64,000 nucleotides of DNA. Origin: an uncultured Butyrivibrio sp. (GTDB lineage Bacteria; Bacillota; Clostridia; Lachnospirales; Lachnospiraceae). Below the pieces are notes generated by a model, which was not told where the DNA came from, did no database searches, and was given only the letters and a program-made list of their open reading frames with translations. This document shows positions 58,900-64,000 of the stretch, one piece after another. Each line of letters opens with the position of its first letter. Position 1 is the first letter of the stretch. The stretch lies in assembly GCA_946623755.1 (NCBI GenBank), contig CAMORK010000002.1, forward strand, positions 49,748 to 113,747, read 5' to 3'. The position numbers and the translations under genes were made by a program.

Positions 58900-58915
58900 T
58901 CATAACGATAAGAAA

Positions 58916-58954
58916 AGACCTTAAGCACGGCTGCTGCTTAAGGTCTTATTTTTT
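58916..58954. terminator. Terminator of rpsT
   Basis: AGACCTTAAGCA (58916-58927) pairs perfectly with TGCTTAAGGTCT (58935-58946), followed by TATTTTTTAT on the plus strand. It overlaps the end of the convergent membrane-protein gene and may serve both. Confidence 0.92.
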
Positions 58955-59951
58955 ATCTTTTTCTTCTTTTCTTGACCTTTTCCTTCACTTCCTCAAGGTT
59001 TCCCTTGTAGTTTTCAGAAGACATCGTAGGATTTCCCTCAATAGTACGTTCTCTGTACCACACAAAGAAATTCTTAACAGGTCCCGGTGTGAATCTCGCC
59101 ATGATAACTTTATATTTGGCATATAGTTCTAAAATCTCTTCTCTTGCATTTCCAACATAGGCTGCGGGATCAAGATTTATTTTTTCCCTGATGGTCTTAA
59201 AGGAATTCTCAAGTGAATCGCTAAGGCTGTCGAGTCTTACCGAAATACCTGAACCGATAGCACCTACAGTACTGCCTACTGTACTTCCGATGCCTCCGAT
59301 CCTGTCACCAATTCCATCAATCTTATCTTCGATACTCTCACGTACATCCTCGCCCTTAAAGGCAATAATGGCATCAAGCCTCTTCTGCATCCTGGCCATT
59401 TCACTCTTGGCTTTCTCCATGTACACAAGCACATCCTTAAGATCGAGAGCTGTCTTGAATGCAAGCATAAAGTCAGCACTGAACATTACCAGAACAACAG
59501 CAGTTGCAACGGTAACTATGTTATAAGGAATTGATAATACAATCCTTTCGATCGGGAGCTGCAGCCAGTGTGTAAAAACCACCGTACAAAGGCCCCAGGC
59601 CAGTGTTGATTCCAGCGAAATCCTCCCCTGGAAATGAATCTTTTTATGAGAATAATCCCAGTATCTGACTTTAAAAAGAGCTTCCATCACAACCGCAGTT
59701 ATGTACTCAAGAGCCGTTGCCCCGATACATCCGGAAACAAATACCAGAACAATATTTTCATAAAAAGGTTTGGATGCCAGCAGCATCATGATCCCGCCAC
59801 ATCCATACAACGGCAAAAAGGGTCCACGAATGAACCCTCTGTTTACAAAATGCCCTTCATGTACAGAGACATAAATCGTCTCAAATATCCAGCCAAAAAA
59901 GCTGTAAAAAAAGAACAGGAATAGCCACTGCATTGGCTGATAATTAAACAT
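58953..59951 (-). CDS. PF06541-type membrane protein (putative ABC-transporter type IV)
   Basis: 332 residues. Five to six N-terminal helices (1-165) include FFFYSFFGWIFETIY, RGFIRGPFLPLYGCGG and EYITAVVMEALFKVRYWDYS, diagnostic blocks of the CmpB/PF06541 family, read in parts. A cytoplasmic helical tail (170-332) contains a Gly/Ile repeat (IGDRIGGIGSTVGSTVGAIG) and a basic end KEKVKKRRKR. No transport function has been proven for the family. It is 15 bp after the second G3E-GTPase gene and likely in its operon. The ATG at 59951 has GGAG 6 bp upstream; a GTG precedes it. Confidence 0.88.
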   Translation of the reverse strand: MFNYQPMQWLFLFFFYSFFGWIFETIYVSVHEGHFVNRGFIRGPFLPLYGCGGIMMLLASKPFYENIVLVFVSGCIGATALEYITAVVMEALFKVRYWDYSHKKIHFQGRISLESTLAWGLCTVVFTHWLQLPIERIVLSIPYNIVTVATAVVLVMFSADFMLAFKTALDLKDVLVYMEKAKSEMARMQKRLDAIIAFKGEDVRESIEDKIDGIGDRIGGIGSTVGSTVGAIGSGISVRLDSLSDSLENSFKTIREKINLDPAAYVGNAREEILELYAKYKVIMARFTPGPVKNFFVWYRERTIEGNPTMSSENYKGNLEEVKEKVKKRRKR

Positions 59952-59966
59952 CACGTTCTCCTACGG

Positions 59967-60914
59967 TCACTGCTGTGGGTTAGAAAAATCTATTACGGGA
60001 TTCTCAGGCTCTGTAGTCTTTTCAACGGATATAGCCTGAAGAACAGGGCCCTCGCCCTTATACTCGGGAACAAACTGTTTAACAACCTTGGCTGTTACAG
60101 TAACCCAGTCTTTCTCATTAAGCTCATCAGTTTTATCATACTCACAGGCAAAGCCCAAAAACTGCATATCCTGTGCGCAGCATGTCATTGCCATTCTACC
60201 CGGAACAAATCTGTTATCCGGGAACTCTTCAGGCTTAAGTACAAGACCTTTGAACCTTACGTTCTTACCCTCATATCTCTCAACGTGATCAAGAGCATCA
60301 AGGTAGAACATGCCATATCCGTAATTGTTAAGCTCTATAGGATCCTGGTTGAGGTCGAAAGGAAGATCCTCATCAAGAGTCACATCAACTTCGCCGTCTT
60401 TATCCTCAAAAATGATATCAGCCTTCTGATTGATGGCCTTTACATTTCTCTTGTATGAAGGAAGCTTATCCGCAAGTCCATCACACCTGTTGAACAGGAT
60501 AAGGTCTGAATTTCTTATCTGTTCAGCCAAAAGAGATTTCATATTGCTAAAATAGAGTTCAAAGCTTGAGCAGTCAATAACTGTTATCTGCTGTTCAAGA
60601 TTCCACATTACAGGGAGCTTCATCTCCCTGAAGTTCCACATTCCGTTGTACTCGATAAGAATACGCTCGGGGTTATGCTTGGCATCAAGTGCAATGAGCT
60701 GATTGGGATTAAAATCCTCTTCCTCTTCAATGTACTCAATTACAGTATTTGTGCTCTTTAAAAGCTTCTCATCATAATCATTCTCGCCCTCTTCGCAGAC
60801 AATAAGAAGAGTCTTGCCCTTTGTCCTGAAGTACGGCTGAGCTATTGTGTAGCGGAAAAAGTCAGTCTTCCCCGCATCCAAAAATCCATTAATAATATAT
60901 ACAGGTTTCATCAT
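59967..60914 (-). CDS. G3E (CobW-like) GTPase fused to YcgQ/TIGR03943-like C-terminal domain
   Basis: 315 residues with an unusual combination. The first ~190 residues are a CobW/COG0523-like GTPase with Walker A GFLDAGKTD and ILIEYNGMW where ILIEPSG is usual; the CxCC metal motif is lacking and G4 reads NRCD. Residues ~200-310 match the C-terminal domain of YcgQ (TIGR03943/DUF1980): YEGKNVRFKGLV, FVPGRMAMTCCAQD, LGFACEYD, WVTVTAKVV. YcgQ belongs to zinc-responsive two-protein systems in Bacillus. The protein may deliver or sense a metal, zinc being the first guess. It lies 40 bp after the His-rich COG0523 gene. Confidence 0.85.
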   Translation of the reverse strand: MMKPVYIINGFLDAGKTDFFRYTIAQPYFRTKGKTLLIVCEEGENDYDEKLLKSTNTVIEYIEEEEDFNPNQLIALDAKHNPERILIEYNGMWNFREMKLPVMWNLEQQITVIDCSSFELYFSNMKSLLAEQIRNSDLILFNRCDGLADKLPSYKRNVKAINQKADIIFEDKDGEVDVTLDEDLPFDLNQDPIELNNYGYGMFYLDALDHVERYEGKNVRFKGLVLKPEEFPDNRFVPGRMAMTCCAQDMQFLGFACEYDKTDELNEKDWVTVTAKVVKQFVPEYKGEGPVLQAISVEKTTEPENPVIDFSNPQQ

Positions 60915-60954
60915 CTCGCACCTCGATAATTCTGCAAATTATTGGTAAAAGACC

Positions 60955-62202
60955 TTATGCAAGTCTTCTAAAGAGTTTCTGAAGATTATCTTCGTTGAGC
61001 TCTGAGCCGATTACGCAGAACTTACCTGTAACGTCAGCTGCTCCTGTTCTTACATCAGACTCCCCCGGAACATAGTCAAACTCGATCCATGATCCGTCTG
61101 TTGATGGAACTACTCCCTTGGTACGAAGAACGATACCATAGGTCTCCTCGTCCTCAAGCTTTGAGAGCATTCCTTCGATCTCTTCCTTAGTGTACTTAAG
61201 GGGAGTCTCCATACCCCAGCTCATGAAGATATCATCGGCGTCATGATGATGGTGTTCATGCTCGTGGTCATGCTCATCGTGGTCATGGTGATGCTCATGA
61301 TCGTGTTCATCATGGTCATGGTGATGGTGTTCATGTTCATCATGATCATGGTGGTGCTCATGATCGTGATCATCATGGTCGTGGTGATGGTGTTCATGCT
61401 CATGTTCATCGTGATCATGCTCATCGTGATCGTGGTGATGATGGCACTCACACTCCTCATCATCGCATTCACCGTCGGGATGTGCGCTGTAGATTACAGA
61501 GCCGTCCTCAGCTATAGTCTTATGGCTGCCATGGTCATGATGATGATGGTGATGATGATGCTCCTGCTCCATAACAAGCTTAAGGAGCTCAGCTTCAAGA
61601 TCATTATTACCCTCGAAAGTATCAAGTATCTCTTTTCCTGTGATATCAGCAAGTGGTGTTGTAATAATAGTTGCTTTCTTGTTGTGCTCACGAATAAGCT
61701 CTACAGCAGTCTCAATCTTGGCCTGATCAGCCTTGTCAGTTCTTGTAAGAATGATTGTTCCCGCATTCTCAATCTGATTAATGAAAAACTCACCGAAATT
61801 CTTAATATAAACTTTGGCCTTAGTTGCATCAACAACCGTAACAGCACTGTTAAGCTCCATATCCTCATTGGCATCGGCAATATTCTGGATAGCTCTCATA
61901 ACGTCTGAAAGCTTACCTACACCTGAAGGCTCAATGAGGATTCTCTCTGGTGCATACTGATCCATTACCTGCTTAAGGGATGTCTCAAAATCACCCACAA
62001 GGCTGCAGCAGATACAACCTGAATTCATCTCGGTAATCTCGATTCCGGACTCCTTAAGAAAACCTCCGTCAATACCGATCTCACCAAATTCATTCTCTAT
62101 AAGTACTACCTTAGTTCCGGCAAGAGCTTCTTTCAAAAGCTTCTTTATAAGAGTAGTTTTTCCGGCTCCCAAAAAGCCTGAAATAATATCTATTTTTGTC
62201 AT
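60955..62202 (-). CDS. COG0523 metallochaperone GTPase with long His-rich insert
   Basis: 415-residue G3E GTPase. Walker A SGFLGAGKTT (8-17), the metal motif SGCICC (Cys63, 65, 66), ILIEPSGVGKLSD, and G4 TRTDKAD. Between the GTPase and the C-terminal COG0523 domain (from ~325) lies a stretch, about 215-321, with roughly 50 histidines alternating with Asp/Glu, plus a CDDEECEC cluster near 246-253. It should store or buffer a transition metal such as Zn, Ni or Co. The DNA of the insert is itself a tandem repeat. The frame opens further upstream; ATG 62202 with GGAG 5 bp before it is used. Confidence 0.94.
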   Translation of the reverse strand: MTKIDIISGFLGAGKTTLIKKLLKEALAGTKVVLIENEFGEIGIDGGFLKESGIEITEMNSGCICCSLVGDFETSLKQVMDQYAPERILIEPSGVGKLSDVMRAIQNIADANEDMELNSAVTVVDATKAKVYIKNFGEFFINQIENAGTIILTRTDKADQAKIETAVELIREHNKKATIITTPLADITGKEILDTFEGNNDLEAELLKLVMEQEHHHHHHHHDHGSHKTIAEDGSVIYSAHPDGECDDEECECHHHHDHDEHDHDEHEHEHHHHDHDDHDHEHHHDHDEHEHHHHDHDEHDHEHHHDHDEHDHEHEHHHHDADDIFMSWGMETPLKYTKEEIEGMLSKLEDEETYGIVLRTKGVVPSTDGSWIEFDYVPGESDVRTGAADVTGKFCVIGSELNEDNLQKLFRRLA

Positions 62203-62250
62203 ATTTTCTCCAATCTGCACATATTGTGCTATAACCACTACAACACATTT

Positions 62251-62279
62251 ATTCTATGCAGATGGATTCTGAATGTCAA
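62251..62279 (-). promoter_or_regulatory. Promoter of the COG0523 operon
   Basis: TTGACA (62274-62279) and TAGAAT (62251-62256) on the minus strand, 17-bp spacer, about 49 bp before the ATG. No Zur-box-like palindrome was recognised nearby. Confidence 0.7.
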
Positions 62280-62298: not shown

Positions 62299-64000
62299 TC
62301 AGTATGTCACATGCGCACCGACTATCTGATTTGCAACCTTTCCGCATCCCCTCGCATACTGAATTTCAACCACATTGGCTGCTTCTTCTTCAGTTGGTTC
62401 AAATGTCCACTTGTCCACAGTATCTGTTCCGCATTGATGACCTGTCGGTATCTCCCAACCGGGGTAGTCTCTATATACCGGCTTCCATGAATCACAGTGT
62501 CTGCATCCCCAGTATTCATAAGGTTCTCCTTTGTCGTCATGTGAAATCAGCATCTCATAGTCTCTGAACACAGGAGCCGTAAAGCTGACATGATAGTACG
62601 GTCTTGTAAAACAACCATTCTGCTCCGGAGACAGATACTCATCCCCATACGAGTCTCCATGCATATCTCCGTCATCTCCTATGCCATCCTGACCGTTTGT
62701 ATGATGATGATACGTATAACTGACATTACCTGTCAGTTCTTCAACCTTTATTTCAGTCTTAATGCTCATGATTGCGTTATATATTTCCTCAAAAGTAGCA
62801 TCACTGGCAACTTGAATGTTTTTTGTCGCTAATGCAGAAGCCACCAACTGTTTTCCATTAGCGACAGATGTAAAAGAATCTTTTACCGACTGATGATACT
62901 CTGAAAGGAGCTGCTTGAGTTCCTGAGTATTGCTGTTCTGCCCCTGGACAATGCTGGAATACTGATTCGCAATATTTGTGTTCAAGCTGTTGAATCCGTT
63001 ATCCATACTTGAATTCAAGGAAGTAATATTCTTGCCAAGTTTTTCATTCATTGAATTGATATTGTTTCCAAGATTCTGATTCATGGAATTTATGTCTTTT
63101 CCAAGTTTTTCGTTCATGGAATTTATACCTTTTCCAAGGTTTTCATTCATGGAATTCATACCTTTTCCGAGATTCTCATTCATTGAGCTTATGTTATTTC
63201 CAAGGCTCTTTTGCATACTGTTAATATCACTGCCCAGACTCTCTTTCATGGAGCTGATATTATTCCCGAGATTCTCATTCATAGAGTTAATGCCATTTCC
63301 GAGATTCTCGTTCATTGAGTTAATATCTTTTCCAAGATTCTCATTCATTGAGTTAATGCCATTTCCGAGATTCTCGTTCATTGAGTTAATATCTTTTCCA
63401 AGATTCTCATTCATTGAATTAATACCATTTCCGAGATTCTCATTCATTGAACTGATGTCTTTTCCAAGATTCTCGTTCATAGAACTGATATTATTGCCAA
63501 GACTCTCATGCATATTATTGATATTGCTGCCAAGACTCTCATGCATATTATTGATATTGCTGCCGAGGCTCTCATTCATTGTGCTGATATTATTTCCAAG
63601 ATTCTCATTCATGGAATTGATATCTTTTCCAAGATTCTCGTTCATAGAATTAATATCTTTTCCAAGATTCTCGTTCATAGAGTTAATATCTTTTCCGAGA
63701 TTCTCATTCATGGCACTGATATTATTTCCAAGATTCTCATTCATGCTGTTAATGCCATTTCCAAGATTCTCGTTCATGCTGTTAATGTCATTTCCAAGGC
63801 TCTCGTTCATTGTGCTGATGTTATTACCAAGGTTATCATTCATATTACTGATATCTTTTCCAAGGTTATTGTTCATATCGCTGATATTTTTTCCAAGATT
63901 ATCATTCATATTGCTGATATTTTTTCCAAGATTATCATTCATATTGCTGATATTTTTTCCAAGATTATCATTCATATTGCTGATATCTTTTCCGAGTTTC
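62299..64000 (-). CDS. Hendecad-repeat surface or tail-fibre-like protein (5' end outside window)
   Basis: The frame is open to the right edge, so the N-terminus is missing. From 64000 to about 62950 it consists of ~31 visible 11-residue units of the type MNENLGKDINS, hydrophobic at positions 1, 5 and 9, which predicts a long hendecad coiled coil. After it comes TQELKQLLSEYHQSVKDSF and then GKQLVASALATKNIQVASDATFEEIYNAI in two blocks, a pattern seen in phage tail and baseplate-associated proteins. The final ~140 residues are rich in His, Cys, Tyr and Gly (TYHHHTNGQDG, YWGCRHCDSW, RGCGKVANQIVGAHV). Function unknown; a surface fibre, adhesin or tail-like protein is likely. No other phage genes are visible. 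The stop is 20 bp from the COG0523 promoter -35. Confidence 0.85.
   Translation of the reverse strand, partial: KLGKDISNMNDNLGKNISNMNDNLGKNISNMNDNLGKNISDMNNNLGKDISNMNDNLGNNISTMNESLGNDINSMNENLGNGINSMNENLGNNISAMNENLGKDINSMNENLGKDINSMNENLGKDINSMNENLGNNISTMNESLGSNINNMHESLGSNINNMHESLGNNISSMNENLGKDISSMNENLGNGINSMNENLGKDINSMNENLGNGINSMNENLGKDINSMNENLGNGINSMNENLGNNISSMKESLGSDINSMQKSLGNNISSMNENLGKGMNSMNENLGKGINSMNEKLGKDINSMNQNLGNNINSMNEKLGKNITSLNSSMDNGFNSLNTNIANQYSSIVQGQNSNTQELKQLLSEYHQSVKDSFTSVANGKQLVASALATKNIQVASDATFEEIYNAIMSIKTEIKVEELTGNVSYTYHHHTNGQDGIGDDGDMHGDSYGDEYLSPEQNGCFTRPYYHVSFTAPVFRDYEMLISHDDKGEPYEYWGCRHCDSWKPVYRDYPGWEIPTGHQCGTDTVDKWTFEPTEEEAANVVEIQYARGCGKVANQIVGAHVTY
62950..64000 (-). repeat. 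33-bp in-frame tandem repeats
   Basis: About 31 consecutive 33-bp units encode the 11-residue repeat; they continue past the window. Central units (for example 63280-63440) are nearly identical in DNA and alternate between two versions (GKDINS and GNGINS), suggesting recent duplication of two-unit blocks. Units nearer the C-terminal end are divergent. Confidence 0.93.

Follow-up and report, generated by a model that had tools for sequence, protein, structure and literature searches.

A histidine-rich COG0523 GTPase is paired with a GTPase-YcgQ domain fusion in Butyrivibrio and related bacteria and may allocate zinc in the cytosol

We analyzed a 64,000-nucleotide stretch of DNA from an uncultured Butyrivibrio sp. 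(hereafter the window), whose relatives come from the same genus. Its minus strand carries genes for a COG0523/G3E GTPase (GTP1), for a fusion of a second G3E GTPase domain to the C-terminal domain of YcgQ (FUS), and for a PF06541 membrane protein (Table 1). Given the spacing of these genes (40 bases between GTP1 and FUS, 15 bases between FUS and the PF06541 gene), the promoter ahead of GTP1 and the terminator-like hairpin behind the last gene, it is likely that all three form a single transcription unit, in which the PF06541 gene is probably co-transcribed with the pair.

Table 1. Features of the GTP1-FUS locus, numbered by position in the window.
Feature	Position	Strand	Basis or remark
Operon promoter, TTGACA-17-TAGAAT	62251..62279	minus	11/12 match; hexamers kept in relatives
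Conserved 5' leader, TGTTGTAGTGGTTATAGCACA-loop-TGTGCAGATTGGAG	62208..62250	minus	Short hairpin directly before the ribosome-binding site
Pairing within the leader hairpin	62229-62225 with 62221-62217	minus	
Ribosome-binding site, GGAG	62211-62208	minus	
GTP1, COG0523/G3E GTPase, likely zinc metallochaperone	60955..62202	minus	PF02492, likeness to YjiA, CxCC, histidine count
FUS, second G3E GTPase domain plus YcgQ/DUF1980_C OB-fold domain	59967..60914	minus	PF02492, PF21537, TIGR03943, AlphaFold2
PF06541 (ABC_trans_CmpB) membrane protein	58953..59951	minus	Pfam match; presence near the pair varies between relatives
Terminator-like hairpin between the unit and rpsT (S20)	58915..58947	minus	Hairpin scan

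The original prediction of three close genes behind one good promoter is borne out, with the promoter conserved in relatives. This promoter is the joint-best match of the region, and promoter-like matches overall showed no excess over shuffled sequences (18 observed vs 17.8). We consider it credible not for its scan score but because the -35 and -10 hexamers and the leader are all kept in 21 distinct leaders from Butyrivibrio relatives. More distant members of the genus keep a promoter but not the leader hairpin. Where the hairpin is present, its loop varies in length between species, 97% of the cells are paired and there is one compensatory pair, so that its support consists mostly of conserved pairs around a variable loop, with thin covariation. 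When we searched 61 genomes with a 22-base leader pattern (up to 3 mismatches), close matches (0-1 mismatch) fell almost only at the GTP1 locus. Weaker matches in these genomes were about as common as those of a reversed control, and we rejected the motif as a regulon element; we also rejected a riboswitch, given the thin covariation and the lack of an Rfam match. Limited almost wholly to this operon in a subgroup of Butyrivibrio, the hairpin could be a translation control element. Upstream of the unit, a gene at 62299-64000 on the minus strand, which runs off the contig end, encodes a coiled-coil repeat protein with a Cys/His-containing C-terminal region; its relatives occupy the same place in most Butyrivibrio loci and have a likely membrane anchor at their start.

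GTP1 (415 residues, ATG at 62202) contains the cobW/G3E nucleotide-binding domain (PF02492, E=2.1e-39, 135 bits against a cut-off of 20.7), a P-loop and, between Walker A and B, the CxCC motif in the form CICC (62017-62006). It has 51 histidines, with runs in residues 215-320 (about 61560-61243), as the original prediction of a CxCC GTPase with about 50 histidines had stated. The CobW_C match fell just under its cut-off (20.2 bits vs 22), no NCBIfam equivalog cut-off was reached, and the best solved relative was YjiA (2.9e-20). CxCC is present in 16/16 GTP1 rows aligned, and GTP1 is histidine-rich in nearly all pairs (median 49 histidines, range 4-81, n=93). The cobW domain, P-loop, CxCC motif and histidine-rich segment are shared with the COG0523 zinc metallochaperones YciC, ZigA, YjiA and ZNG1; unlike these proteins, GTP1 has a near-constant partner, in which an OB domain is fused to another GTPase.

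FUS (315 residues) matches PF02492 at residues 4-168 (E=2.3e-14). Its predicted likeness to YcgQ was upheld by two profiles above curated cut-offs: PF21537 (DUF1980_C) at residues 186-306 (86.1 bits vs 25.9) and TIGR03943 (93.0 bits vs 88.8), which together span residues 176-306. The TIGR03943 match covers model positions 92-220 of 221 only, and PF09323, the N-terminal membrane part of YcgQ, has no match in FUS. CxCC, whose absence had also been predicted, is lacking from all 21 rows of second GTPases (0/16 FUS and 0/5 others), and by these sequence features the domain is a G3E GTPase but not a canonical COG0523 chaperone. An AlphaFold2 model of FUS alone was confident (mean pLDDT 89) and showed a G3E domain followed by a C-terminal beta-barrel that matches OB folds, including those of CST and AsnRS; a sequence search of FUS against solved structures gave nothing meaningful. 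The best solved structural matches of the GTPase domain were the nickel GTPases HypB and UreG, which share its fold but differ in their conserved motifs; the neighbours identified included no hydrogenase or urease genes. As the FUS model has neither a membrane helix nor a signal peptide, its YcgQ-type domain should be cytosolic.

Residues G10, G15-K16-T17, EEG (41-43), E88, N90, G239-R240, C245, C246 and D249 are invariant in 15 FUS proteins. The last three form an OB-domain motif, C245-C246-x-x-D249, with the family form (C/H)CxxD: the second cysteine and the aspartate three residues on are kept in 15/15 FUS and 16/16 YcgQ domains aligned, and the first cysteine is replaced by histidine in 2/16 YcgQ domains. 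This conservation pattern suggests a likely metal site, or a thiol-redox site. Loss of NKxD from FUS was rejected as a sign of lost GTP specificity, since the pattern also misses most GTP1 rows.

Among 99 relatives searched, FUS-like proteins occur in nearly all Butyrivibrio and in some other families. One conserved peptide, scanned against 84,980 genomes, yielded at least 596 stretches encoding relatives; the 80 that we kept have Lachnospiraceae names, or unplaced Clostridiales-type or bacterial MAG names. GTP1 lies directly upstream of FUS in 95/108 loci from several families; some of the remaining loci are interrupted by contig ends. Outside Lachnospiraceae, the same pair occurs with different neighbours (L031, L032, L033, L201). 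The pairing of a CxCC GTPase with FUS also recurs, because second, diverged FUS copies in some Butyrivibrio adjoin another CxCC GTPase (L043, L044, L047-L050). Besides Butyrivibrio, hundreds of related bacteria of the gut and rumen carry the pair. FUS matches in L033 (G085) and L050 (G040) contain one in-frame stop (TAA, TAG). These matches probably overrun the true ends and do not mark broken genes; the genes are likely intact because full open frames were found there. A further FUS paralogue has no adjacent CxCC GTPase (L041:7710-8624, L042:7500-8423) and adjoins a Nitro_FeMo-Co (NifX-like) protein and FKBP fusion (domains tested in L041), which hints at a different metal client.

The PF06541 protein (match at residues 12-165, 168 bits; ATG at 59951 likelier as its start than GTG at 59954) does not share this conservation. 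Its gene lies within three genes downstream of FUS in 18/34 Butyrivibrio and 31/58 non-Butyrivibrio loci, many genomes keep GTP1-FUS without it nearby, and it was not seen near the pair in the other families examined (L031-L033). Because YlmH, an RNA-binding S4 protein, is equally conserved in the same non-Butyrivibrio loci (30/58), the link to FUS looks like inherited gene order. Co-occurrence of the three predicted partners in relatives therefore held for GTP1 and FUS and failed for the PF06541 gene, which is absent from about half of the loci; we rejected this protein as a core component and as the membrane partner originally proposed. The conserved unit outside Butyrivibrio is the GTP1-FUS pair, not the trio, and PF06541 is dispensable for the system.

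FUS is related to YcgR-YcgQ, an ArsP_1 permease together with a DUF1980/TIGR03943 protein, whose homologues include ScfAB in group A Streptococcus and SMU_747c in S. mutans. FUS shares with it the YcgQ C-terminal domain and the CCxxD motif but has a GTPase domain in place of the DUF1980 membrane half, and no YcgR permease adjoins FUS. ArsP_1 was not found in 19 FUS-bearing Butyrivibrio genomes of at least 95% completeness or in the window's own genome (60% complete); since the 19 near-complete genomes have none, the permease, which most near-complete Butyrivibrio genomes lack, is dispensable. In other Bacillota, the parts stand in other arrangements: GTP1, a fusion of cobW to an ArsP_1 permease of the YcgR family, and a separate membrane YcgQ (L035, L036, L038); YcgQ, GTP1 and a free second GTPase (L037); or an uninterrupted series of ZnuA, YcgR, YcgQ, GTP1 and a free second GTPase (L188). 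The permease-fused GTPases, like FUS, lack CxCC. In a maximum-likelihood tree, all FUS domains group with the GTPase of the L035 fusion (98/91), and a separate cluster (99/97) unites GTP1 with canonical COG0523 rows. Neither group includes the L036/L038 pair or the two free second GTPases; some of these branches are long and flagged unsure by the program. The simplest reading of these relationships is that the second GTPase was an old companion of YcgR-YcgQ that some lineages fused to the permease and this one to the YcgQ domain, so that FUS appears to be a derived form of this membrane system. YcgQ proteins are predicted to have three membrane helices, and in several a loop rich in Cys and His links helix 2 to helix 3. 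The N-terminus and this loop are somewhat richer in positive charges than the other segments, which weakly favours a C-terminal domain on the outer side of the membrane; the OB domain would then have been relocated from the outside in YcgQ to the cytosol in FUS.

Gene context and published Zur data from Bacillus support zinc as the metal, and znu genes adjoin both forms of the system. One Lachnospiraceae locus (L129) reads GTP1-FUS-ZnuA-ZnuC-ZnuB with genes overlapping or touching, and ZnuA lies a few genes downstream of the pair in L119, L121, L128, L133, L135 and L139 (called by similarity only in L121 and L135); these loci are partly related and so not fully independent. In other families, znu genes flank YcgR-YcgQ in L188 and in L193 (ZnuA-ZnuC-ZnuB-Fur family-YcgR-YcgQ). 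PF01297/ZnuA-type transporters can carry manganese too. For the L128, L129 and L188 proteins, zinc models of NCBIfam (AdcA, Azt) ranked first and manganese models next, all below equivalog cut-offs, and for the L193 substrate-binding protein the two kinds tie. In vitro, purified Zur of B. anthracis binds the region that separates the divergent COG0523 gene yciC from an ArsP_1 permease operon resembling S. mutans SMU_747c (PMC6336718). In Butyrivibrio, we saw neither a znu gene nor a zinc regulator beside the pair, and the best matches to a Bacillus-type Zur box upstream of GTP1 were no better than shuffles; Clostridia may use another box. We infer that zinc is also the ion in Butyrivibrio.

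On balance, we lean towards a cytosolic zinc-allocation pair derived from YcgR-YcgQ: GTP1 would store zinc and load it, with FUS as its GTPase partner and as the acceptor. COG0523 proteins use GTP and have their metal-binding site at CxCC; dimers are common among G3E GTPases. GTP1 would collect zinc on its histidine-rich segment and load it at CxCC in a GTP-dependent manner. FUS, its G3E paralogue with no CxCC but with the OB-fold domain of YcgQ, would be the dedicated partner, most likely in a mixed GTPase complex. The zinc at the CxCC of GTP1 could then move to the (C/H)CxxD motif in the OB domain, or FUS could relay it to a client protein; GTP hydrolysis would set the direction of transfer. 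Under zinc scarcity, intracellular proteins would most likely receive the metal from this pair. In evolutionary terms, FUS would have arisen from a membrane YcgR-YcgQ system with two GTPases: the second of these would have become attached to the C-terminal domain of YcgQ, and both the permease and the membrane helices would have been lost.

The strongest rival, which we nonetheless regard as unlikely, holds that FUS carries no metal and is a regulatory subunit of the GTP1 GTPase cycle, its OB domain serving as a protein-binding or thiol-redox module. The missing CxCC in every FUS member tested would fit this, as would the tendency of OB folds, such as the CST and AsnRS domains matched here, to bind proteins or nucleic acids. 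The constant second cysteine and aspartate, preceded by cysteine or histidine, suit a metal site, but a CC pair suits redox chemistry too. Next in rank, and less probable still, is the view that the pair serves a metal other than zinc, be it cobalt, nickel, iron or manganese, with the assembly of corrinoids or metalloclusters as one example. G3E GTPases also serve nickel and cobalt, manganese is a possible cargo of ZnuA-type proteins, and some loci adjoin MetF, a CobB/CobQ-type amidotransferase, AnfO or the NifX-like/FKBP protein. However, each of these neighbours is a single case. Zinc-type ABC genes and a gene of the Fur family turn up repeatedly, across several lineages and beside both architectures, and Zur control of the Bacillus homologues has been published (PMC6336718).

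We regard as improbable a GTP-driven metal import or membrane delivery system in which FUS docks on the PF06541 protein as a substitute for the lost YcgR. The position of PF06541 as third gene of the unit, its frequency downstream of FUS and the related loci in which a permease carries the second GTPase as a fused domain speak for such a system; the equal conservation of YlmH and the many GTP1-FUS genomes without a nearby PF06541 gene, among them L031-L033, speak against it. Since FUS is without the YcgQ membrane half and most near-complete Butyrivibrio are without YcgR, cytosolic delivery is likelier than transport. Of the original prediction of a GTP-driven metal import or delivery operon, metal handling is supported, as is the GTPase-YcgQ domain fusion, which is real, widespread and linked to zinc genes; the import component is not.

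The titles and abstracts that we searched on TIGR03943, DUF1980, UPF0703 or YcgQ with COG0523 held no description of a GTPase-YcgQ domain fusion, in agreement with the original note, which knew of no such system. As far as this literature goes, the arrangement is real, widespread and undescribed; it is one more variant among the zinc-handling GTPases already known rather than a new type of system. To our knowledge, little is known about which proteins COG0523 zinc chaperones work with and which they supply, and YcgR-YcgQ is without an assigned function. The fusion ties the two together: it points to a dedicated COG0523 partner, predicts a zinc-handling role for the YcgQ OB domain and, as a soluble two-protein system, GTP1-FUS is open to purification and assay. 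Streptococcus homologues of YcgR-YcgQ matter for infection fitness (PMC5584981). As a tentative idea, YcgR-YcgQ might be a GTPase-coupled zinc permease energized or gated by two unlike G3E GTPases, from which Lachnospiraceae could have made a purely cytosolic relay by attaching the second GTPase to the zinc-receiving domain of YcgQ; the ancestor of that domain may have lain on the opposite side of the membrane. Among the permeases of this family, one (L192:3019-4821) is a 600-residue protein that carries PKD domains before its YcgR-type ArsP_1 domain and adjoins YcgQ.
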